Below are positions 4,088 through 22,351 of a stretch of DNA of 23,660 nt, one piece after another. The notes below the pieces were generated by a model that saw only the letters and a program-made list of their open reading frames with translations, was not told the origin of the DNA and searched no databases. Location of the stretch: IMG/VR virus record IMGVR_UViG_3300020053_000679, positions 1 through 23,660 of that record; one strand, written 5' to 3'. The stretch is from a virus. Position numbers and translations under genes: made by a program. Positions within the stretch are counted from its first letter, which is position 1. The number at the start of each line of letters is the position of its first letter.

Positions 4088-4601
4088 CTTTTAACCTCAA
4101 ATAAGTCATTAATATGTATTGGTCCTCGTCCGCGGGGGCAATACTGTATTCATAAAGCCAAGCGTAAGGGAATACCGTTAGATACCCCTGTACCTGCTGT
4201 GTCTCTATGCCTGCGTGTTCAAATTTTATATTACCACCTGAGACAGTGTTTAGATGATACATCATTGCTAAGCGTCTCTTAGGGGTTCCATAATTATCAA
4301 AGAATACTTTAGCACCCTCTCCCTTTGGTATTTTAGTTACCACCACGTGCTCAATCTCAGAACTTTTAAGCCTAAGAGAATTGACTACATACTGTGGTAC
4401 TAGTGCCGAATAGGACCCAACAGAGGAGAGTATAGGGGCGCTAAGATTTGTCCTAAATTCACTATCCACATCTGAGAACAATAAGCACCCATTATGTGAA
4501 TGATGATTTTGAGGATTCTCTTCCATTAACTTAATGGTCTCCCGGCACAAATCGTCCGGGAGACCTTCGTCAAAGTATTTGATGTAATTAGAAAGTAACA
4601 T
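4068..4601 (-). CDS. Prolyl-4-hydroxylase-like 2OG-oxygenase fold, iron ligands not seen
   Basis: The 177-aa protein resembles the P4H-like 2OG-Fe(II) oxygenases common in marine phages. RRLAMMYHLNTVSGGNIKFEH (109-129) matches the core strand R-x-L-x-x-x-x-Y-L-N-x-x-x-x-G-G and GYLTVFPY (139-146) matches the later strand. The HxD motif would fall at Phe100-Phe101-Asp102 and the distal His near 150, but neither His is present. It may therefore be a non-catalytic relative, or my by-eye alignment is off. I chose ATG 4601, which gives a typical start MLLSNYIKYFDEG and overlaps the CobS-like stop by 14 bases; ATG 4613 is an alternative. Confidence 0.55.
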   Translation of the reverse strand: MLLSNYIKYFDEGLPDDLCRETIKLMEENPQNHHSHNGCLLFSDVDSEFRTNLSAPILSSVGSYSALVPQYVVNSLRLKSSEIEHVVVTKIPKGEGAKVFFDNYGTPKRRLAMMYHLNTVSGGNIKFEHAGIETQQVQGYLTVFPYAWLYEYSIAPADEDQYILMTYLRLKDEAAAV

Positions 4602-5784
4602 CTTCACCTGCATCAACTACTTCTTCCGTCGCTACTTCTTCAGTAACTTCGGGTTGTGCCGAAGGGTCGACCTTTGAGTACAAGTCAACAAACGCTGCCT
4701 TTGTATCTTCATCGAACCTGTTGACACATAACTGTACAGCCTTGAGCTTATCACCGAACATCGCGAATGCGTTAACAATGTGTTCAAGCCTACGTGTGCT
4801 AACCAACTCGTCAATGGCGCCTTCGAAGTAAGTCTTACGAATGACCTCGGACCATGTTACTAGGTGAGTAGCAAACTCTTCGTCTGTACAATTTGCTTTA
4901 GCCATTTTGTTGAGAACAATCTTTTTCTCAGTGGCTGCTGTAGGGTATTCCTGCTCTACGGTAATTGCGAATCTCTCCAGGAACGCCTCGTCCAAAAGTT
5001 GGGCGCTGATGAACTTTCCGTCATCTGAGCCTTTGCCTTTTGTATTAGCCGTTGCCACAACCGTGAACCCGGGAGCAGGAATAACAGTCTCGCCGTTCTT
5101 CTTGTTAAAGTAAGATTTGCCTTCAAGTATGGCCTGGAGGCACATGAGCTTGTTGGATCCTCTGTCTACTTCATCAAGGATAAGTACCGCGCCACGTTTC
5201 ATGGCGGTGAGGACCGGTCCTTCTCTATAAACGACGTTACCGTCAACTAGTGTATTTCCACCGATCAAATCGTCTTCGTCGGTTTCAATACTAATATTTA
5301 CACGAATCGCCTCACGGTTTAGATTCGCACATACTTGTTCAACCATCGTAGTCTTACCATTACCTGATAATCCTGAGATGAATATTGGATAGAACATTGG
5401 AGACTGAAGAACTTTCTTCAAATCTCGATAGAAACCAAAGGGCACAAACGTGCTGTCTTTGGCTGGGATTAAATTTTCTATATCCACGTTTAACTTTGCC
5501 TGTGTTAGGACCTTGGCTTCAGGAGTCTCGACTACCATCACTGGAGTCTTTGGAACTACCTGCATCTGAGTCTTTTGGATTGGCGCCATGCTTCCTTGAA
5601 ACATATTTGCCAAATTGTAAAGTCCTCGAGACACTTTCCAATCGTCTTTGTTAACAATCCAGGACGGAAAGGGTTGTCCTAGTTCTTCGGCAGTCTTTAG
5701 GATATCAATCCTTTTGAACTGTCCGTTTTGAGTATCCTTTTCTTTCAATGCCGATACCAACTGCTCTCGTTCTAATGTCATCAT
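4588..5784 (-). CDS. CobS/MoxR-like AAA+ ATPase
   Basis: The 398-aa AAA+ protein resembles the CobS subunit of aerobic cobaltochelatase and MoxR ATPases. Walker A is GLSGNGKTT (138-146) and Walker B is AVLILDEVDRGS (199-210). Such ATPases normally act with a VWA partner, and a CobT-like VWA protein is encoded two genes upstream. I chose ATG 5784 because GAGG lies 8 bases upstream and the more upstream in-frame TTG (5829) and ATG (5820) lie at or next to the predicted transcription start. It has its own promoter, a near copy of the one before the CobT-like gene. The C terminus is acidic. CobN, the large chelatase subunit, is absent from the window, so a role in B12 synthesis is not supported; a remodelling ATPase is more cautious. 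Confidence 0.85.
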   Translation of the reverse strand: MMTLEREQLVSALKEKDTQNGQFKRIDILKTAEELGQPFPSWIVNKDDWKVSRGLYNLANMFQGSMAPIQKTQMQVVPKTPVMVVETPEAKVLTQAKLNVDIENLIPAKDSTFVPFGFYRDLKKVLQSPMFYPIFISGLSGNGKTTMVEQVCANLNREAIRVNISIETDEDDLIGGNTLVDGNVVYREGPVLTAMKRGAVLILDEVDRGSNKLMCLQAILEGKSYFNKKNGETVIPAPGFTVVATANTKGKGSDDGKFISAQLLDEAFLERFAITVEQEYPTAATEKKIVLNKMAKANCTDEEFATHLVTWSEVIRKTYFEGAIDELVSTRRLEHIVNAFAMFGDKLKAVQLCVNRFDEDTKAAFVDLYSKVDPSAQPEVTEEVATEEVVDAGEDVTF

Positions 5785-5831
5785 AATATAGTCCTCACTA
5801 TTTTTAAGTTGTTTTTTCATTTTATACAAGT

Positions 5832-5860
5832 ATTATACAGCCTATTTTTCTAAAAGTCAA
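5832..5860 (-). promoter_or_regulatory. Sigma70-like promoter for the CobS-like gene
   Basis: On the minus strand TTGACT (5860-5855), a 17-base spacer and a perfect TATAAT (5837-5832) are followed by TTGTATAAA. The start site would be near 5825, leaving a leader of about 41 bases that includes AGTGAGGACT, a word also in the CobT-like leader. Its upstream half is inside the 27-bp repeat. Confidence 0.85.
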
Positions 5861-5880
5861 GCAAAAAACGCACTTTTTTT
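5854..5880. repeat. 27-bp direct repeat, copy 1 (CobS-like promoter)
   Basis: These 27 bases are identical to 8891-8917. They cover the -35 box, the GC before it, an A/T-rich tract and a run of seven T on the plus strand. The copies sit at the same place relative to two promoters, so they likely act as a shared upstream element or binding site. They could also be the trace of a duplication. Confidence 0.85.
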
Positions 5881-5911
5881 CACTTTTTTTCAACTCTTTT
5901 GCCGTATAATA

Positions 5912-6595
5912 TCAATAACTTAGGCCCTTACCTAACATTCCACCCGTTTTATCTTCCGGATATTCTGTCGCAAAATCTAATTGCTCTACCAAACGTTCGT
6001 ATACCTTAATCTCAGGACGCAAGTAACGGAACAAATCTAGTCTATAATTAGGGTATTCTAGAGCCTCTTCAACTGCTGCTAGAACTTTAGGATCACTTGC
6101 GTTTATTGTTTCAACTTGTGAATAACCCAGCTGGGTTAATAGTGTGTTCATTTGTTTTAAGTGAACTATCTTACAATTCTCAGGAACTACAAACCTATCT
6201 AGCCAGTTTGCGGTATGTACATCTCGCAATCCCCAATTATTAGAATTATTATGATTGACCTGATTCCTAATGTAATGATCCCAAAAGGAAGGGTCTCTTA
6301 AGATCGGCATGGTGACGAGTTGGTTATGCAACTCTAGGTTACGGAACTTCTTTTTTTCCTGTGGGCCCAACATTAACCTCGAGACAGAGTATGTCCTATT
6401 TGATATTAAGCCACTAACATACCTTTCATAAGGGTGTCGGATAAGCATCCACTTCTGTTTCTTACCAGACTCTAAATCTAAGTAAGAACCAGATTTTAAA
6501 CCCTTGATAGATCTTAAGGTTGATGTCCCTACTTTTGGAGCAGAGATTATGACATTATTTTTATCGTTAAAAATATCCATCGGTTTTGGAATCAT
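5912..6595 (-). CDS. Sulfotransferase family protein
   Basis: The 227-aa protein shows the two PAPS-binding signatures of sulfotransferases. The 5'-phosphosulfate loop is SAPKVGTSTLRS (18-29) and the 3'-phosphate segment is LIRHPYERYVSGL (51-63). Such enzymes move sulfate from PAPS to hydroxyl or amino groups of sugars, lipids or peptides. The acceptor is unknown; a cell-surface or virion glycan is possible. Its ATG overlaps the CobT-like stop (ATGA), so the two are co-translated, and it separates the CobT-like from the CobS-like gene. No signal peptide or membrane anchor is seen, unlike eukaryotic Golgi enzymes. The gene ends just before the CobS-like promoter. Confidence 0.8.
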   Translation of the reverse strand: MIPKPMDIFNDKNNVIISAPKVGTSTLRSIKGLKSGSYLDLESGKKQKWMLIRHPYERYVSGLISNRTYSVSRLMLGPQEKKKFRNLELHNQLVTMPILRDPSFWDHYIRNQVNHNNSNNWGLRDVHTANWLDRFVVPENCKIVHLKQMNTLLTQLGYSQVETINASDPKVLAAVEEALEYPNYRLDLFRYLRPEIKVYERLVEQLDFATEYPEDKTGGMLGKGLSY

Positions 6596-8835
6596 GCTAC
6601 CATATCCATAAACTTGCTTAGGAACACTCGCTTCTGAACCTTACCTGAGTTGAACTTCTTAAAGCCTCGGAGTAGGTCGCCCTTCTTGCTAGAGTTAACT
6701 TCTAGGACATCTTCATCAATACCTAACTTCTTACCGTTAACTAGGAAACGAGCATCGTAGCCTACCTGATCTTGAATCATCAAGACACCATCTCGTCTAA
6801 AGGTTTTCATGTATTGTCCATCTTCAAAGGAGCACCAGCTAAAATCGCTATTGTATTGTTGGGTTGATTCAAACTCGTAGTTTACATTTCGAGTTGAGCT
6901 ACCTTGCATTAAGTAGTAATTGATCGCTGAGGATCCTGTAGTCAACTTGAACATTTCAACTAGGAGAAGAGTGTTATAATTTCTATCTCTGCCTCGAATG
7001 TTTTTGCCGCCACCAACAATCAATTGCTTGTGTCGTAATACGGCTTTCTCATTGTGGAGTAAACCTTTACTCCAAATGCGCTCATCGTCAAACGTTGATT
7101 GCTCCCAAATCTCCACGTTATCTGTGGCTCCACCATCAGTTAGGAACAGTGTATTCATTATCTCTACATTGTTAGCCTTGCGGAAGTCTTTCACAATCTG
7201 CATTGCCATTATCAAAGTATGGTTGAGATTAGTTCCACCTAGTTGATAGTTTCTGTTCTCAACCTGCCACCATTCGTTTTCATAACGGTTTCTTGATGAA
7301 CGTATGTTAAAGTATTCTGCATAACATAACAAGTGCTTCATCGCAGATTCAGTCTGAGTCTTATTCCATGAACCTGAGAACAAATGACGGAGCATCATGT
7401 CTTCTTTTTGTAGGGCAACTTGTCCTGGAATCCTTTGAGATTCTACGGCGCCATATTCGTTGCCAGTTGTAAAGCCATAAACCTCAAACGGAATATTGAC
7501 TTTCTTACAAAACAACACCTGAGTCAACAGCTGTTCAATTGTGCCTGCCATGTTACCAGACATACTGCCTGACATATCAATAAACATACACATACCGTGG
7601 TTTTTACCGTTGGGCACAACCGTTGTCTGTTTGAAGAGATCTTCTGTTATCTTGTAAGCCCAAAGCTTGTCCTCGTTCAACTTACCTGTTTTAGAAATCT
7701 TTGCCTTAGACATCTGTGTTGCTTTACGCTTCATCTCGAATTGCTGAACCATATGATTAACAACCGAGTTATTTTTTGCCTTGAATGTTGAGAGTAGTTC
7801 AGTTGCTACCAGCTCTGTATCTTTAGCAGTGTCTGCATAATAGTCTGGCATAATCTTGAAACTCTTGTTCAAGCCTGTGTACATCACGCTCGCTGGGACT
7901 ACATACTTTTTCCAGTCCTTAACCTCAGGGATGTCTATGTAAACCGGTGTCAAGCTATCTATATCTATCAACTTCTTTTCGTTTTTTCGGAAAGCTTGAT
8001 CTGTGATTGACATCTCGCCGTCGCTTTCCATAAACTCGTCTAACAAGTCCTGGGCAGTTGACTCGCCTTCTTCGGGTTCTTCTTCTTCATCTGAGTCTGA
8101 GTCTGAAGGGGTGTTGCCTGATTGATTTGTTTCTTCGGATTCTTCTTCGTCGTCCTCCTGTTCATCATCTGAGCTAGGAGGAGGGGGAGGGGGAGGAGTA
8201 TCCATTTCATCGTCGTCTTCGAAGTCCTCGTCTGAGTCTTGAGGAACATACTTTTGCTGTTCCTTCATTTCTTCGGCTTCTTTTTGAGAGTTACCATACA
8301 ACTCTTGAGCTAACTGCTCAACGTCTGCCCATGTCTCAGTTTTTGCTACACGGTCTACGAATACTTGTTCTTCGTCTGTAAAATTGATGCCTAGGAGAGA
8401 ACCTACTTTAAAGTGAAGATTGATTCTGTCAATTAGTGGAAGTTCGTTAACGTCTAAATCCTTAACACCGAAAAAGTCTCGGGCAAAAAGTTCTCGGTAA
8501 CCACCGTAGAAACTTTTAACTAGTCCAGGATAACGTTCTTTTACTTTACGCTCGATACGAGCATCTTCTACAATGTTGAGGAAGCCTTTGAGCTTGGGGT
8601 CTTTAGAAACTGAATCGTGCCAGCCTTCCTCAGGAGTCTCTAAACCGTGTCCGACTTCGTGTCCTACTAAGAGGTCATAAAGATCAGGGGAGATGTCTTT
8701 CCATTGGGGGAGGAGGATCTTTCGATTCTTAAGGTCAAATGCTGCTGTCGGAATGTTGGCGTGTTCTACCTGAACATTCTCCGTCGCTAGCAGTTTTGCT
8801 AGTATCGACTTTTGGTTGTTTATTTGTATCGTCAT
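6592..8835 (-). CDS. CobT-like protein: metallopeptidase-like domain, acidic linker and VWA domain
   Basis: The 747-aa protein has three parts. An N-terminal zinc-metallopeptidase-like domain contains HEVGH (59-63) and NIVEDARIER (87-96), which could supply a third metal ligand. A strongly acidic linker (about 200-260) includes seven prolines (214-220). A von Willebrand A domain follows, with a complete MIDAS motif DMSGS (420-424) and a later LTDGG. This matches the CobT subunit of cobaltochelatase and the VWA partners of MoxR ATPases. The CobS-like ATPase encoded downstream is the probable partner, bound through the MIDAS. The ATG (8835) has GAGG upstream. No CobN is present, so the target of this pair is unknown. 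Confidence 0.85.
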   Translation of the reverse strand: MTIQINNQKSILAKLLATENVQVEHANIPTAAFDLKNRKILLPQWKDISPDLYDLLVGHEVGHGLETPEEGWHDSVSKDPKLKGFLNIVEDARIERKVKERYPGLVKSFYGGYRELFARDFFGVKDLDVNELPLIDRINLHFKVGSLLGINFTDEEQVFVDRVAKTETWADVEQLAQELYGNSQKEAEEMKEQQKYVPQDSDEDFEDDDEMDTPPPPPPPSSDDEQEDDEEESEETNQSGNTPSDSDSDEEEEPEEGESTAQDLLDEFMESDGEMSITDQAFRKNEKKLIDIDSLTPVYIDIPEVKDWKKYVVPASVMYTGLNKSFKIMPDYYADTAKDTELVATELLSTFKAKNNSVVNHMVQQFEMKRKATQMSKAKISKTGKLNEDKLWAYKITEDLFKQTTVVPNGKNHGMCMFIDMSGSMSGNMAGTIEQLLTQVLFCKKVNIPFEVYGFTTGNEYGAVESQRIPGQVALQKEDMMLRHLFSGSWNKTQTESAMKHLLCYAEYFNIRSSRNRYENEWWQVENRNYQLGGTNLNHTLIMAMQIVKDFRKANNVEIMNTLFLTDGGATDNVEIWEQSTFDDERIWSKGLLHNEKAVLRHKQLIVGGGKNIRGRDRNYNTLLLVEMFKLTTGSSAINYYLMQGSSTRNVNYEFESTQQYNSDFSWCSFEDGQYMKTFRRDGVLMIQDQVGYDARFLVNGKKLGIDEDVLEVNSSKKGDLLRGFKKFNSGKVQKRVFLSKFMDMVA

Positions 8836-8868
8836 TAAAAGTCCTCACTTTTATTAATTTATACAAGC

Positions 8869-8897
8869 ATTATAAACTCTTTATCTGCAGAAGTCAA
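8869..8897 (-). promoter_or_regulatory. Sigma70-like promoter for the CobT-like gene
   Basis: TTGACT (8897-8892) and a perfect TATAAT (8874-8869) on the minus strand are separated by 17 bases. The start site would lie near 8862, 27 bases before the ATG. Sequence on both sides closely resembles the CobS-like promoter, including TTGTATAAA just after the -10 box. Confidence 0.85.
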
Positions 8898-8917
8898 GCA
8901 AAAAACGCACTTTTTTT
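8891..8917. repeat. 27-bp direct repeat, copy 2 (CobT-like promoter)
   Basis: Identical over 27 bases to 5854-5880 and in the same position relative to the -35 box. Beyond base 8917 the two loci diverge, though both stay T-rich on the plus strand. Confidence 0.85.
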
Positions 8918-8938
8918 GAATTCTTTTTCCTTATTAAA

Positions 8939-10435
8939 TCAGTAGTTTAGGGATAAAGTCAACAAATATTCACGTCCGCCGGCAGTATATTGGGGTAAAA
9001 TCTCGAATTCTCTATCAAAAACGTCCCTAATTTGGAACATTACATTGTAGGTTCCAAAGTCTTTTCCTATATGTAACTGTGCTGATTTTACATCCTCGAG
9101 CGGTGTTTTGTCAACGTCTCGTCGTCCGTTTTGGTATGCTAGTTTGAACCCGTAGGTATAACCCTTGTAGTCGTCCTCAAGCATGATTGCTGTACGAAGT
9201 TTAGGGATCCTTGGAAGATCTGAATGTGTGACTGCTATAACTGTCTTGAATTTTTTGTAGTATGCTAGTACCTTAATACCCTTGGTACTGTAGGAGCCTG
9301 TGTTCACATACTGGTTATTGACATAGTCGTAATCTATACCCTCGTCAAATTCGTAGGCGAAAGCTGAAAAAATTTTATATCGTACGTCGACACCTTGCCC
9401 CTCCTCTGCGTTGAGAAACCGATTTGGTGATACCCAACCGTCGCCGTTCGTTTCATATAGAGTCGGTCGCCTATAACTGTTCCCTACACTAATTGAAAAG
9501 TCTGAGGTTCTAACACCTACTTTATATACGAATACATCATCGTTCTCATATCTTAGTCCTGCATTAAACAAATCATAGGTAAGAAAAGAGTAGACTGATC
9601 CAACTGTTAACTTTTCGGCGCCATTATCCTCTCTTTCTACGTTTGCTCCAAGTAGTACATAATCGTTGACATGCTTACGAGTATCTAAATAGTATCTTTG
9701 ATTTTTAGAAGAGTAGCTCTCTTCACCGTTTCTCAAAAATGTTTGTTCGTTTTCTACGAAACCAAATGTTGCATTTTCGCCTTGTATTGATAACTCGTGC
9801 TTCCTACCCTTTTGTTCACAATCGTCAGACTCCCAGCATGAATCATAATCGTATTGGTAATCTGTTAAAGCATAATTTAATACACCCGTTTGAAGTCTTA
9901 AAACATTGCTATGGTAGTCGTCTTCTTCCTCATTGGTGTTCATTACGCTACCATTCGATGCTTGCTTAGATGCTATAGAAAAGTATTCGTCGCCAATTGA
10001 AACATATTTTGAATCACTGCCTGCTTGAGCTATGAAGTGTTTTCTAAGTTTGTCTGTTATAAAAACAGTGCCTGCTAAACTACCCGAGCCTGTGAGTACA
10101 CTATTGGGTCCATGAGCAATCATGATCTCTTGGTATTGTTGAGGTAGATCGTTTGCCCAGTCATACCAACCAGTAGAAGGATCGTTAACGGGTACGCCGT
10201 TCCTAAAGACTCTGGTATGTGTAGAACTCTGTCCGCGATCTCTAAAAGAAGAAAATCCACCAATACCACCTGGGGTAAAAACCATTGATGGTAAGATGGA
10301 TTCAATTGTTGAAGTGTTAAGTGCAGGGTCTACTTCTACTTTGTTAATAGGTTGCCCTACAACAATAACTTCTTCTATTGTCTGTCCGTGTGCAATTGTG
10401 CTCATAAGAGCGAAACATAATATAAGGTGTTTCAT
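8939..10435 (-). CDS. TonB-dependent outer-membrane receptor, BtuB-like
   Basis: The 498-aa protein has a signal peptide (about 1-17, hydrophobic LILCFALMSTIAHG), then a TonB-box-like EEVIVVG (21-27). A plug domain covers about 30-130, with FRDRGQSSTHTRVFRNGVPV (64-83), DWANDLP and GPNSVLTGSGSLAGTVFI (109-126). The rest (about 365 residues) is a likely beta barrel ending in an aromatic residue (LLTLSLNY), the usual outer-membrane assembly signal. This matches TonB-dependent transporters for cobalamin, siderophores or similar ligands. It is shorter than E. coli BtuB (614 aa), mainly in the barrel. It is last in an envelope module with a His-rich secreted protein and an M15 peptidase. A receptor gene is unusual in a phage; substrate unknown. 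It implies a Gram-negative host. Confidence 0.9.
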   Translation of the reverse strand: MKHLILCFALMSTIAHGQTIEEVIVVGQPINKVEVDPALNTSTIESILPSMVFTPGGIGGFSSFRDRGQSSTHTRVFRNGVPVNDPSTGWYDWANDLPQQYQEIMIAHGPNSVLTGSGSLAGTVFITDKLRKHFIAQAGSDSKYVSIGDEYFSIASKQASNGSVMNTNEEEDDYHSNVLRLQTGVLNYALTDYQYDYDSCWESDDCEQKGRKHELSIQGENATFGFVENEQTFLRNGEESYSSKNQRYYLDTRKHVNDYVLLGANVEREDNGAEKLTVGSVYSFLTYDLFNAGLRYENDDVFVYKVGVRTSDFSISVGNSYRRPTLYETNGDGWVSPNRFLNAEEGQGVDVRYKIFSAFAYEFDEGIDYDYVNNQYVNTGSYSTKGIKVLAYYKKFKTVIAVTHSDLPRIPKLRTAIMLEDDYKGYTYGFKLAYQNGRRDVDKTPLEDVKSAQLHIGKDFGTYNVMFQIRDVFDREFEILPQYTAGGREYLLTLSLNY

Positions 10436-10804: not shown

Positions 10805-11266
10805 CTATGCGGTCAGTCCTAAAGAGTACTGAGTTTTGCCATCAACTCGTGATGCTGTTAATGATTTGCCTCTGTTTCCTTCTGTGTTATACGACACATG
10901 AACCCAACCTGAGTCTGGGATACCTGACGTATAGAACTCTAAGATTACTTGATCAAAGTCTGTATTTTCCTCAATCCATTTTGCTAAATGATAATTGGGT
11001 ACGCCGGCTACTTCAATATCTGCTGCTTGTCCTTTGCAATGCTGGGACTTAGAGCTACCACCTACTGCTTTATTAAGTTCGTCGCCTCGATAACCACTGT
11101 TAATGTTAACAGGGCCAAAGTGGTCTCTAACTTTCTGCAGAACATTCTCACATAATGCGATTGCATTGTCCAAATGTTCTTTGGGCATAGAATTGTCTAA
11201 GCCTCGTCTTGTAGCAGTTTGCGACTTTTCAAATTCAGCTAGAGAAAAGTTTTTAGATAGTTTCAT
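10805..11266 (-). CDS. M15-family peptidoglycan peptidase, probable endolysin
   Basis: The 153-aa protein matches peptidase M15 DD- or LD-carboxypeptidase-like enzymes that cut peptidoglycan peptides. The zinc-binding motif is SQHCKGQAADIE (74-85) with His76 and Asp83, and the third ligand is His123 in WVHVSY. The segment VNINSGYRG (53-61) is also typical. There is no signal peptide, as expected of a phage endolysin that needs a holin, though no holin was recognised nearby. The gene has both a strong early-type promoter (11310-11338) and a late TATAAATA box. A role in lysis is likely; a virion-associated role is possible. Confidence 0.88.
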   Translation of the reverse strand: MKLSKNFSLAEFEKSQTATRRGLDNSMPKEHLDNAIALCENVLQKVRDHFGPVNINSGYRGDELNKAVGGSSKSQHCKGQAADIEVAGVPNYHLAKWIEENTDFDQVILEFYTSGIPDSGWVHVSYNTEGNRGKSLTASRVDGKTQYSLGLTA

Positions 11267-11296: not shown

Positions 11297-11304
11297 TATT
11301 TATA
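11297..11304 (-). promoter_or_regulatory. Candidate T4-type late promoter box TATAAATA for the endolysin
   Basis: TATAAATA on the minus strand lies 31 bases before the endolysin ATG, in noncoding DNA. The gene's product fits late expression, which makes this the best late-promoter candidate in the window. Confidence 0.6.
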
Positions 11305-15826: not shown

Positions 15827-16270
15827 CTACCTCTCGTAGATCGCTGAGTTGGCTCCGTGTTCACTTACTTCACAACTAACAGCAAAGCATCTACCATCTG
15901 TCATTTCTTTTACCAAAGCGTCTGCCTTATGGAATGCGTGTTCCGCAAATTTTTCACAACCAACGCCTGGCATAACAACAACCTTGGCAAGGCCTTTTGC
16001 TTCCAGTTCTAGTAAGTCTTTCATAAAAGGATCATCTCTATCCACAACCAATGTATGGTCAAAGCTAGACTTTAGCCATTCTTTTAGAATTTTTAACCCA
16101 CCAAAGTCTACCACCCAGTTTTTATCATCGAGAACTTCTGCTCCGAATTTAAAACTGAAAGCTAAAGAGTATCCATGTAGTAAACTGCAATGGCTATGGA
16201 AAGCATTTGGTTGTCGGAAAACACAAGATAGTCCTTCGTTGTGTCCATATGTTTTAGTAGAATAGTTCAT
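15827..16270 (-). CDS. queD: 6-carboxytetrahydropterin synthase, QueD family
   Basis: The 147-aa T-fold enzyme should convert 7,8-dihydroneopterin triphosphate to 6-carboxy-5,6,7,8-tetrahydropterin, step two of 7-deazaguanine synthesis. The features are STKTYGHNEGLSC (4-16), HSHCSLLHGY (25-34, metal and catalytic region), WVVDFGGLK, FDHTLV, GCEKFAEHAF and VSEHGANSAIY. The pattern matches a bacterial QueD-like subfamily with LHGY instead of HGH, so one zinc ligand is non-standard. It is separated from FolE and QueE by about 4 kb and lies just before gp47. The call is good at family level; 6-pyruvoyl-tetrahydropterin activity is the main alternative. Confidence 0.88.
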   Translation of the reverse strand: MNYSTKTYGHNEGLSCVFRQPNAFHSHCSLLHGYSLAFSFKFGAEVLDDKNWVVDFGGLKILKEWLKSSFDHTLVVDRDDPFMKDLLELEAKGLAKVVVMPGVGCEKFAEHAFHKADALVKEMTDGRCFAVSCEVSEHGANSAIYER

Positions 16271-18520: not shown

Positions 18521-19786
18521 CTAAAATAAATCTTCAAGTGAAAGTGGTGCCTCGTCCTTGACTGGTGCAGATTTCATTCTACCACCTAAGTAAGGATTGT
18601 TAAACCACGAGTTAAAACCGTCTAAGTCTTTTACATCATATAGATTTCTATATTCTCCTTCTAGTTTTAATTTGTGTGCAAACTTTAATAGCTCTTCTGG
18701 AGAGTTTAAAATTTTCTCCACGTGCTTAGTAAAATTGTGAATAGACATTAAGATGAACGCTGTGCGTATCTTTATCCAGTTATTAAGGTTAGTGTTACTC
18801 TCTAACCATGTTGTGCTATTTGTGTTCATAATTCGATGGAATTCTTTAACATCTACGCCTAAATCAACCACTTTTTGAACATCTGTGTACATTTCTTGAT
18901 AGTAGTTACTAAACTGTCGGTTAAACTTAACTGTCTTTCCATTCATATAATACAGTCCAGTTTCAACAGCACGACTGTGAGTTGTACTATCATAAGATAT
19001 TTTTACATCTTTATACAAGCCATTCTGTAGGAATATAATGTAAGGTAACAAACGTCTAAGGGCACCAACACCTAGAATGTGAATGTGCAATGTGCCGTTC
19101 TCATTTCTAATAGGAACCTGTGATGCAATAAAGGCACGTTGAATATCTTCTAAGTTGCCTGTACCTAATGCCGCGGCACCCATTGCGATACCACCGAGCT
19201 TATTATGTTTTTCGGTTGGGATCTCTTCTAGGATATATTTTGCCCATTCCATATATGTTTCGTAGCAATTGCCTTGTAGAATAACAAAAGGTTTACAGTT
19301 GCTATTATGTTGATCAAAGACTTCAAATTGTCTTTTAATATTTCTGCCTGTAATCCTAGCGCAGTTCTCGTGTCCATCTCTGTCAAAGAACCTACCCTTA
19401 ACATCATTACGATCTGAACGATCGCCTACAAGCGTAACGGGTATCTCATCAAAGCACATACCAACATCAGCATACTTTGCCTGATTCTCGTAGACTTTAT
19501 CTTTTAGTTCTTCGGTAATTGTTTTACCTTGTGTAACAACCTGAAGACCGCCTGAGTCTGCATGGATAGAGTGAACATTGGGTGTATAAACTTTGAACCT
19601 GTCGCCAAAGCTAGACTCTGTGTGTGCATTGTAAAGCATTGAAAACTCGTGGGAGTTTACATTGTTCACAGTTTTGTTTAGCAAGTCGTTTACAATTGCC
19701 GAGTTTATTTCATCGCCTGCAATCTTTGGATTGCTTAGTCTCATGTATGAGGTGCCGGATACGACATATTCTAGTTTATGGTTCAT
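18521..19786 (-). CDS. dpdA: DpdA-like TGT-fold DNA transglycosylase
   Basis: The 421-aa protein resembles tRNA-guanine transglycosylases and their phage relative DpdA, which swaps guanine in DNA for a 7-deazaguanine base. HADSGGLQ (75-82) matches the substrate-binding DSGGFQ with Asp77. GGIAMGAAALG (198-208) and IHILGVGALRR (235-245) match the glycine-rich barrel segments. ISYDSTTHSR (263-272) is where TGT has its nucleophilic Asp, here Asp266. TGT's usual C-terminal zinc site (CxCxxC) is not seen, which favours DNA-type DpdA over bacterial TGT. It is co-transcribed with FolE and QueE. The final residues PLSLEDLF resemble clamp-binding tails. The start overlaps the exonuclease stop in ATGA. 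Confidence 0.82.
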   Translation of the reverse strand: MNHKLEYVVSGTSYMRLSNPKIAGDEINSAIVNDLLNKTVNNVNSHEFSMLYNAHTESSFGDRFKVYTPNVHSIHADSGGLQVVTQGKTITEELKDKVYENQAKYADVGMCFDEIPVTLVGDRSDRNDVKGRFFDRDGHENCARITGRNIKRQFEVFDQHNSNCKPFVILQGNCYETYMEWAKYILEEIPTEKHNKLGGIAMGAAALGTGNLEDIQRAFIASQVPIRNENGTLHIHILGVGALRRLLPYIIFLQNGLYKDVKISYDSTTHSRAVETGLYYMNGKTVKFNRQFSNYYQEMYTDVQKVVDLGVDVKEFHRIMNTNSTTWLESNTNLNNWIKIRTAFILMSIHNFTKHVEKILNSPEELLKFAHKLKLEGEYRNLYDVKDLDGFNSWFNNPYLGGRMKSAPVKDEAPLSLEDLF

Positions 19787-20322
19787 GATTTTAGTATTTC
19801 TAATATGAGTTTCGCCTCTGCTTGGGCGTCATGTAGAGCATTGTGATTAACACCTGTTTTTTCTAAACGCTTACCTAATACATTAGCAAGTGTTCTTAAA
19901 CAGTAGATATCCCAAAACTTCCATGGAAATTTATCTATTGCTGGTCTGCTTTCATTCCAGCCAGTAGCATTAAAGGCGTTCTCTAAAAGTACAACATCAA
20001 AGTTCGCACCGAAGCCCCAGATAGGAATGGATTTGTCGCCATAAAATAATGCGAACTTATCAAGTGCCTCGTCTAAAGGAACAGGATCTACTTGCCAAGC
20101 CTTACGTGCTTCTGGAGATTGTTCTTTCCACCAATTAATTGTATGTGGATCAATAGCTAGCCCATAACTTTTACAAGAGCTAGGATCAATGTTGATAAAG
20201 AATGTATCCAAGATACCTTCGTTGATTGAAAAAGCAACAGCGCCAATTGAAACAATGCAACCGTTTGATTTGGTGCTTAGTGTTTCTAAGTCAACGACTA
20301 TTTGTCTTTTAGAGGGATCCAT
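19783..20322 (-). CDS. DEDDh 3'-5' exonuclease
   Basis: The 179-aa protein belongs to the DnaQ/RNase T-like superfamily. The acidic catalytic residues are Asp11 and Glu13 in VDLETL, Asp109 in GANFDVVLLENAF, and His160 with Asp165 in HNALHDAQAEAK. It resembles the exonuclease-domain family that includes T4 DexA-like enzymes. It could process DNA ends or RNA, or degrade host DNA; the substrate cannot be read from sequence. It lies between FolE (14-base overlap) and the DpdA-like gene (ATGA overlap), so it is produced together with the base-modification enzymes and may do a linked repair step. Confidence 0.87.
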   Translation of the reverse strand: MDPSKRQIVVDLETLSTKSNGCIVSIGAVAFSINEGILDTFFINIDPSSCKSYGLAIDPHTINWWKEQSPEARKAWQVDPVPLDEALDKFALFYGDKSIPIWGFGANFDVVLLENAFNATGWNESRPAIDKFPWKFWDIYCLRTLANVLGKRLEKTGVNHNALHDAQAEAKLILEILKS

Positions 20323-20992
20323 TACCCAACTCCTGTAATTGTATGTTGTGCATAAATTCGTTTTTAAGTGCTGAGTCTGTTCTCAACAAACCTTTTAGCA
20401 CAGTGGTTTGTGTACTACTGTTAGAAGATCTAATGCCACGGTTTTCGCAACAACCATGTCTCGCTCTAATGTAAACACCGACTGCTTTAGATTTAGTCAA
20501 TTCCTCAATTTTCTTGGCAATCATTTCTGTTAGTTCTTCTTGTAAGTGTCCACGTGCTGACAAGTGCTGTGCAATTCTAGTGTATTTGCTTAAACCGATA
20601 ACTTCTTCGCCTGGCATACAAGCAATATAACATACACCTTGAACTGGTTGATGATGGTGTGAACACATGGATTTAATATCACTTCTAATAACAATCAACT
20701 GTTCATAGGCATCATCATTTGGAAAGGCAGTAACTTTAGGCTCTGGTTCGTAGCGACCACCCATGATTTCGTTGTAATACATCTTAGCTAAGCGCCTAGG
20801 TGTATCTTTACTGTTGGGGTCATTCTCTCTATCAATAAGTAGAGAGTCAATAACTGCCTCAAATTTTTCTGTTAATTCATCAATCAAGTCTTGATGTTCT
20901 TGTTCTGAGATATGCTGAGCGATGTTATCACTAGCAAAATAACGAACATTGTTCGTCTTTAGTCTCTCTATAATTGTTTTACTTACGCTCAT
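20309..20992 (-). CDS. folE: GTP cyclohydrolase I
   Basis: The 227-aa enzyme converts GTP to 7,8-dihydroneopterin triphosphate, the entry step of 7-deazaguanine (and folate) synthesis. Zinc ligands are Cys110 and His113 in SMCSHHHQPVQG and Cys181 in RHGCCENRG. GLSKYTRI (133-140), ARGHLQEELT (146-155) and the DTPRRLAKMY helix are all intact. I chose ATG 20992 because GGGAG lies 5 bases upstream and the ATG overlaps the phosphoribosyltransferase stop in ATGA; an in-frame TTG at 21019 is less likely. Its neighbours QueE and DpdA indicate use in DNA modification rather than folate supply. Confidence 0.95.
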   Translation of the reverse strand: MSVSKTIIERLKTNNVRYFASDNIAQHISEQEHQDLIDELTEKFEAVIDSLLIDRENDPNSKDTPRRLAKMYYNEIMGGRYEPEPKVTAFPNDDAYEQLIVIRSDIKSMCSHHHQPVQGVCYIACMPGEEVIGLSKYTRIAQHLSARGHLQEELTEMIAKKIEELTKSKAVGVYIRARHGCCENRGIRSSNSSTQTTVLKGLLRTDSALKNEFMHNIQLQELGNGSL

Positions 20993-21450
20993 TTTTTCTC
21001 CCATGGAAATTGTATCCAATTTTCTATATTATACACATTACATCCTACAATGTCAAGTGCTATTTCTTCTTTTTTGTTAAGTAGAGTACCAAATAATGCT
21101 TTAGAGTTGGTACAGTGATTGTTGACAATATCCATAATACCCATATAGGTGGTACCTGAATCTATTAAATCGTCAACGATAAGAGTGTTAGAATGGCTTC
21201 TAAAAGTTTGTATTAGTTTTATTTCATCCCTACGTTTGCCGTCCCGTGTCTGCCACTCTAGTGGGACAAAGGGCACACCCAATCTTTGAGATATTATCAC
21301 GCCTGGAATTAATCCTCCTCGTGCAACACCACAAACTTGTTCAATAGTGTAATCCTTTTCAACTATATCCAAAATCATATTGTCTATCAGTTCATCCACT
21401 TCAAACCATGATAGATCCAATATACCCATGTCGTCAATGTTGAAGTTCAA
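20989..21450 (-). CDS. Purine-type phosphoribosyltransferase
   Basis: The 153-aa protein has the PRPP-binding signature TLIVDDLIDSGTT (89-101) and VARGGLIPGVIIS (42-54), typical of type I purine PRTases such as xanthine-guanine PRTase. It would join a purine base to PRPP and release pyrophosphate. It lies between queE and folE: the queE stop is 1 base before it and its own stop overlaps folE. This suggests a role in the deazaguanine pathway, such as salvaging guanine released by the DpdA-like enzyme. The start is probably TTG 21450 (AGGA upstream); ATG 21429 is the alternative. Base specificity cannot be read here. Confidence 0.85.
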   Translation of the reverse strand: MNFNIDDMGILDLSWFEVDELIDNMILDIVEKDYTIEQVCGVARGGLIPGVIISQRLGVPFVPLEWQTRDGKRRDEIKLIQTFRSHSNTLIVDDLIDSGTTYMGIMDIVNNHCTNSKALFGTLLNKKEEIALDIVGCNVYNIENWIQFPWEKK

Positions 21451-21451
21451 T

Positions 21452-22351
21452 TTAGGTTCCTATTTGATTACCAAAGACGTAAGCGTGATTCCTAGTAGCT
21501 ACCTTGTAGCCTCGATTCATCGCTTCTATTGCTATATCTGCCGCTACCAATTCCTGTCCTTCAACTGTAGCGCCCACTGGCATTATCCAAATGTCAGGCT
21601 TTTTAATTTTGTCTGCAACATTTTTATAATAACTATTTAGCTCCGTAACAAAGTCTTCTATCTCTTTCCACGAATCTTCTGTACCATTACAGACAAACTT
21701 TAGAATGCCTGTGCTTTGAGGTACACCTTCTAAATAAGACATAATAATATCAAGGTTGACTTTACCAACTTCACCTGATGTTTGTAACAGCTTTGGACTC
21801 ATTGCCCAATGCCATTGTCCGCCCATATCGTGATAGTATGTATTAAGCCACTCAGCCAACTCTGGGTTCAACTTTTTAGTAGCGTTTGTTTCTACTGTAA
21901 CAAGTTTTGGAATATTGCCTCTGATAACAAACTCATTAACAATTGCCTTCATCTGCTTTTGTTGTAACATGGGCTCGCCACCTGTAAAGGCAAGCATATT
22001 TTCTTGTCCGGTTCTGGGGTGTGTGAATTTGCCGTGGGGTAATTTTGATTCTAGTAAATCTGCCGCACCTTGTGGGTCTGTGTCTTGTGCTAAGTGTTTA
22101 TACTTCTTGCTCCAACTGTAACTAGAATCACAACCATATTCCCATACAGGCAGGTCTTCTACTCTTTTTACATTAATAAGATCTAAGTCAAGAAATGGCA
22201 GTTTATATGTTGAGGGGTCTGTAGGATCTTTTTGTCCAAAACCATTACATTCTAAGTTACACCCAAAAAAGCGAATCCATGTCGTAGGAGTGCCTGCGTG
22301 TTCAGCCTCGCCTTGAAAGCTATAGAATATTTCCGAGAATCGTACTTTCAT
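21452..22351 (-). CDS. queE: 7-carboxy-7-deazaguanine synthase QueE, radical SAM, with split cluster motif
   Basis: The 299-aa radical SAM enzyme would convert 6-carboxytetrahydropterin to 7-carboxy-7-deazaguanine. EIFYSFQGEAEHAGTPTTWIR (7-27) is the typical QueE start, and FTGGEPMLQ (122-130) is the SAM-binding motif. The [4Fe-4S] cysteines appear to be Cys31, Cys35 and Cys74 (WEYGCDSSYSW). The usual CX3CX2C spacing is thus broken by a 38-residue stretch between the second and third cysteines, since residue 38 is Phe. E. coli QueE also has a non-standard spacing, so activity is plausible. It is first in the operon, with the TATATTATG start word and its own promoter. Confidence 0.9.
   Translation of the reverse strand: MKVRFSEIFYSFQGEAEHAGTPTTWIRFFGCNLECNGFGQKDPTDPSTYKLPFLDLDLINVKRVEDLPVWEYGCDSSYSWSKKYKHLAQDTDPQGAADLLESKLPHGKFTHPRTGQENMLAFTGGEPMLQQKQMKAIVNEFVIRGNIPKLVTVETNATKKLNPELAEWLNTYYHDMGGQWHWAMSPKLLQTSGEVGKVNLDIIMSYLEGVPQSTGILKFVCNGTEDSWKEIEDFVTELNSYYKNVADKIKKPDIWIMPVGATVEGQELVAADIAIEAMNRGYKVATRNHAYVFGNQIGT

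Follow-up and report, generated by a model that had tools for sequence, protein, structure and literature searches.

A phage-specific family of compact BtuB-type TonB-dependent receptors in marine T4-like phages

The stretch of DNA analysed here (the window) is a 23,660 nt record of an uncultured virus, IMG/VR IMGVR_UViG_3300020053_000679. Its gene set is that of a T4-like marine phage and includes a clamp loader, a sliding clamp, gp46/gp47-like recombination proteins and a late sigma factor. The closest isolates by clamp loader are the Pelagibacter phages Mosig EXVC030M (63.5%) and HTVC008M (59.3%) (Kyanoviridae), which have backbone gene types as in the window (clamp loader 59-64%). No isolated phage matched the window at the DNA level, and tblastn up to E 10 found no receptor gene in either of these two phages. 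Within this phage context lies an intact ORF for a TonB-dependent receptor (TBDR), flanked by genes of the phage (Table 1).

Table 1. Positions of the receptor gene, its features and its neighbours in the window
Feature	Coordinates	Strand	Basis or remark
CobS-like AAA ATPase of marine T4-like phages	4588..5829	-	Sequence searches
CobT-like metallopeptidase/vWA protein, phrog_459	6592..8835	-	Fixed downstream neighbour in receptor slot
Phage BtuB-type TBDR	8939..10435	-	498 aa, ATG start, closed frame
Predicted 22-stranded beta-barrel, residues 133-498	8942..10039	-	DSSP of AlphaFold model and superposition on BtuB 2guf
C200-C206, invariant cysteine pair in loop L3	9818..9838	-	Phage alignment; absent from BtuB
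Y197-D198 in loop L3, aligned with BtuB Y229-D230	9842..9847	-	Invariant in 43/43 phage sequences
E170-E171-D172, at the place of BtuB D193/D195	9920..9928	-	MAFFT and hhalign give an identical pairing
Plug domain PF07715, residues 39-123	10067..10321	-	Pfam E 2e-9
TonB-box-like EEVIVVG, residues 21-27	10355..10375	-	Aligned with BtuB Ton box
Putative signal peptide, about residues 1-17 (MKHLILCFALMSTIAHG)	10385..10435	-	Sequence read directly
Small exported glycine-/histidine-rich protein, 118 aa	10439..10795	-	3 nt upstream of receptor start
M15 peptidase / endolysin	10805..11266	-	First gene of the endolysin, 118-aa protein and receptor run

The sequence-only reading had described the product as an outer-membrane receptor that is complete although short, and both parts of this description hold. 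The N-terminus (MKHLILCFALMSTIAHGQ) is signal-peptide-like by eye, as it is on the same by-eye reading in all aligned family members. A motif search for the Ton box was positive in 30 of 43 phage sequences, and E22 and V25 within it are invariant in all 43. The match to Pfam Plug exceeds the curated cut-off, the same domain was matched by 18 of 18 aligned members, and the protein ends on an aromatic residue (NY*). An AlphaFold model built from the family alignment (pLDDT 76, pTM 0.76; first 28 residues low) has, by DSSP, a plug and 22 barrel strands within residues 133-496. The barrel comprises only 366 residues. A missing barrel, which had been named as the weak point of the receptor assignment, is not what the model predicts, as the 22 modelled strands and a full-length superposition on BtuB point to a closed one.

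VIA-align gave E. coli BtuB (2guf) as the top match, with Z 34.0 and an rmsd of 2.1 over 435 residues. E. coli BtuB fills the first 11 rows (Z 31.8-34.0), Bacteroides B12 transporters rank next, and the first transporter for anything other than B12 has Z 29.6. The Foldseek ranking agrees in placing other TBDRs below BtuB. One caveat is that few solved TBDRs are as small as BtuB, and small size may help it in a fold ranking. The sole TBDR among viral fold matches was a marine-phage SusC.

Homologs of the 118-aa protein encoded just upstream of the receptor occur in many, but not all, related loci and adjoin the receptor in several contigs; one is also present in a contig that has no receptor (L136). 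The protein contains a glycine-zipper-like stretch and the histidine tract HGHGHGHYHP. Some 31 bases upstream of the M15 peptidase start, on the minus strand at 11297-11304, we found an exact TATAAATA, which resembles a T4 late promoter. The site is confined to the window and is not kept in relatives, and a conserved late promoter for the receptor family was rejected. Downstream, the CobT-like and CobS-like genes are each preceded by a copy of a leader of about 80 bases with TTGACT and TATAAT boxes (8849-8929 and 5812-5891; 82-83% identical), which resembles a repeated early promoter. An ORF between these two genes (5912-6595) is sulfotransferase-like by eye, has no Pfam match and is present only in the window's own group.

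Single-protein pattern searches returned just two near-identical contigs. In these two IMG/VR contigs the receptor is colinear with that of the window, at 97% amino acid and 98% nucleotide identity. Because the receptor diverges too fast for pattern searches, we searched viral contigs via its slowly evolving neighbours, the CobT-like and CobS-like genes. This revealed an intact receptor ORF in about 27 more loci (E 1e-79 to 1e-100), some of which are overlapping or near-identical records. In these loci the receptor always either immediately precedes the CobT-like gene or is separated from it by one ORF, and many share the order ClpP, TBDR, CobT-like, CobS-like. A profile of 18 members then identified relatives in at least 102 viral contigs, of which 80 were retained, all with long open frames. 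In related contigs that do not have the receptor, the slot is filled by other ORFs or is nearly empty, and no receptor was found elsewhere in the eleven of them scanned whole. There is also a second setting, for example in contigs L305 and L325, where the receptor lies between the T4-type recombination genes uvsX/uvsY and uvsW, with a gp32 gene among them. We conclude that the receptor belongs to a whole phage-specific family and is not a one-off.

These results bear on whether the gene could be an assembly chimera, or a passenger bacterial gene that is functionless in the phage. The IMG/VR records are from uncultured viruses, and no genuine isolated phage in the collection that we searched has the gene. 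However, the same gene and gene order occur in near-identical contigs, the slot is conserved in more than 20 further loci and holds the gene in dozens of more distant phage contigs, and the second setting is among phage genes. Moreover, the phage sequences form one clade with open frames under purifying selection, as described below. A chimera or passenger is therefore hardly credible and is refuted for practical purposes, which removes a concern raised when the ORF was first noticed. PHROGs contained no family matching the receptor. Two matches in the phage collection, AGRM01000004.1 and AFYI01000005.1, are Salmonella chromosome contigs carrying btuB and 16S rRNA, and were rejected as misfiled bacterial contigs.

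We placed 43 phage sequences in a tree with 29 bacterial BtuB-like proteins and nine other bacterial TBDRs. All 43 fall on one side of one branch (SH-aLRT 100), with a stem of 1.4 changes per site. This topology is consistent with a single ancient acquisition and later evolution inside phages, with the caveat that the phage sequences were gathered with phage queries, so that a separate acquisition of a bacterial-type receptor would have escaped notice. In moderately diverged phage pairs dN/dS is 0.19-0.24, indicating purifying selection.

Both the profile search and the fold comparison single out BtuB as the closest of the solved TBDRs. Against solved chains, the family profile matched E. coli BtuB at E 1e-22; further B12 transporters followed from 2e-4, and none of the remaining TBDRs, siderophore and heme receptors included, fell below E 0.01. 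Comparison with gammaproteobacterial BtuB-like proteins by hhalign gave E 1e-62 over 507 columns. The NCBIfam BtuB equivalogs TIGR01779 and NF007926 were matched with 32-45 bits against cut-offs of 599.7 and 836, and at scores so far under the curated cut-offs the protein is not to be filed as BtuB proper.

The regulation of bacterial relatives provides a second line of evidence. In bacteria, btuB usually has such a switch upstream, although this does not strictly define the gene. Of the 40 nearest bacterial homologs, taken from loci retrieved by their match to the phage receptor, 34 are preceded by a cobalamin riboswitch, whereas among 13 other TBDRs from the same genomes only 2 are (Fisher p 1e-5). 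The two riboswitch-positive controls rank among the three best-scoring controls, and several of the genomes encode many Plug domains (44, 48 and 54). No cobalamin riboswitch was detected at receptor loci in ten phage sources, and riboswitch control of the phage gene was rejected.

A third line comes from the calcium cage of BtuB, whose aspartates we take to be at mature positions 179, 193, 195, 230 and 241. The positions corresponding to 193, 195 and 230 are E, D and D in all 43 phage sequences, and Y229 is also kept. Strict invariance is rare in the barrel, at 22 of 366 residues. The acidic pattern is absent from other TBDRs, and we estimate the probability of its arising by chance at about 1e-5. 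D179 and D241 are not kept in the phage family, nor in most bacterial homologs. In BtuB, occupancy of the cage of five aspartates raises the affinity for B12 1000-fold (PMC7360065).

The family has also diverged in ways that could indicate another ligand. The cobalamin-binding loops are much shorter than in BtuB and are remodelled. The invariant cysteine pair, which probably forms a disulfide, and the invariant tryptophan W90 have no counterpart in BtuB, and identity to bacterial relatives is just 30-40% or so, chiefly in the plug. Iron limits much of the ocean. A receptor merely descended from BtuB and serving a ferric siderophore, heme or another metal complex would suit these observations. 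We nevertheless consider it unlikely, given that BtuB is matched at 1e-22 and siderophore and heme receptors all stay above E 0.01, that the relatives are under riboswitch control, and that the calcium-cage acids are retained. Of the two substrates initially offered, cobalamin is thus favoured by the profile match, the riboswitches and the acids, and iron is disfavoured; the assignment to a phage-encoded TBDR itself stands.

In combination, we consider it fairly likely that the protein is a trimmed BtuB-type receptor through which cobalamin or another corrinoid is imported with the help of the host's TonB. The host's Sec and BAM machinery would export the receptor and place it in the outer membrane of the infected cell, where its Ton box would couple it to the host TonB-ExbBD. 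A phage-encoded TonB was considered and rejected, as none is present in the 17 phage records tested. Energized in this way, the receptor would carry cobalamin or a related corrinoid across the outer membrane. With no B12 riboswitch, the phage copy would stay on even where B12 is abundant, and may so evade the host's B12 feedback and sustain uptake. The vitamin might then feed methionine and SAM synthesis of the host, and perhaps B12-binding radical-SAM proteins of the phages themselves.

A change of the cell surface is the main rival explanation. Most extracellular loops in the model, where phages and colicins bind, are only 2-14 residues long; the one between strands 13 and 14 (about 20) is the exception. 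Many phages use TBDRs as their receptors, and FhuA is blocked by phage T5 through Llp. A loop-poor BtuB-like receptor could replace or titrate the host's receptor or TonB and so protect the infected cell against superinfecting phages or colicin-like toxins, with transport secondary or lost. The T5 precedent (FhuA-Llp, 8a60) is itself among the fold matches, and in the window the receptor follows the endolysin gene behind the exact TATAAATA, which would suit late expression. This site is not conserved in the family, however, and a mere decoy would not need a Ton box, a plug and calcium-cage acids under purifying selection, so that we think it improbable that surface remodelling is the main role. 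A reading that joins the two, in which a phage-only BtuB family imports B12 outside riboswitch control while its trimmed loops deny rival phages and colicin-like toxins a foothold, seems to us slightly more doubtful still. Put more broadly, the phage probably carries its compact BtuB version to maintain the supply of a scarce vitamin to infected cells, or to alter their surface, during its own multiplication.

A fourth and weak pointer to corrinoids comes from other genes of some receptor-bearing phages. Contigs L172 (5938-7386), L335 (316-1875, minus strand) and L155 (11498-13057) encode proteins in which a B12-binding-like domain precedes one of the radical-SAM type. L335 is the window's sister contig, and the gene in L172 is directly after the receptor. 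The B12-binding domain matches are around or below the Pfam cut-off, and the two of these proteins that were compared with PHROGs had no match there. Such genes were found in 6 of 13 receptor-bearing contigs versus 2 of 16 others, a weak association (p 0.09) that ignores kinship; among contigs of at least 70 kb the p value is 0.02, again with kinship ignored. A class II (B12-dependent) ribonucleotide reductase was considered as a user of the vitamin and rejected, as the enzyme of these phages belongs to class I, with NrdB, and so does not need B12, which counts against the corrinoid reading. In L305, a S-adenosylmethionine synthetase gene (7524-8624) lies two ORFs after the receptor; it matches phrog_1569, which is still listed as "unknown function". 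Across contigs, this gene shows no association with the receptor (2 of 13 receptor-bearing versus 1 of 16 others), and a link was rejected. The CobS-like and CobT-like genes that adjoin the receptor downstream in marine T4-like phages are named after cobaltochelatase subunits and are nominally B12-linked. However, the phage CobS-like protein matches CobS weakly, the CobT-like protein hardly matches CobT at all, and a cobalt role is putative. As these neighbors occur both with and without the receptor, they say little about B12.

The known system most similar to the phage receptor is BtuB of E. coli and other Gammaproteobacteria, with which it shares the Ton box, the plug, the predicted 22-strand barrel (Z 34), the acids at 193/195/230 and the best profile match. 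It differs from BtuB in that its barrel lacks about 90 residues and most of its loops are trimmed, in the extra L3 cysteine pair, in having no riboswitch, and in scoring far below the BtuB family cut-offs. A TBDR encoded by a marine phage is as such already reported: the megaphages Mar_Mega_1 and LR745206 encode a SusC-type TBDR that was proposed to raise nutrient uptake (PMC9723777), the single phage TBDR for which we came across a report. That protein is about 800 aa long, is 11% identical to the window receptor, belongs to other phages and is not BtuB-like. SusC-type identity was rejected for the window receptor, which has 498 aa, no CarboxypepD-like domain by Pfam and no recognised SusD-like neighbor. 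We found no report of a BtuB-type, phage-specific and widely conserved family in the papers searched, nor such a family in PHROGs or among isolated phages, a status that is provisional because the libraries are incomplete.

Phages normally use TBDRs as doors into the cell, and here a whole phage lineage brings its own. B12 is scarce in seawater and is required by much of the plankton. If B12 is what the receptor moves, infection by these viruses would have a direct effect on how this vitamin circulates, and the phage group would share a conserved auxiliary gene for vitamin uptake, as opposed to a stray acquisition. A compact natural TBDR with a 366-residue barrel could also reveal which loops are truly needed for B12 transport.

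When examining the remainder of the window we noted genes for QueD- (15827-16270), Tgt-like (18521-19786; a weak TIGR00430 match), FolE- (20309-21019) and QueE-like (21452-22351) proteins. Together they resemble a 7-deazaguanine set, which suggests that the DNA of this phage is modified.
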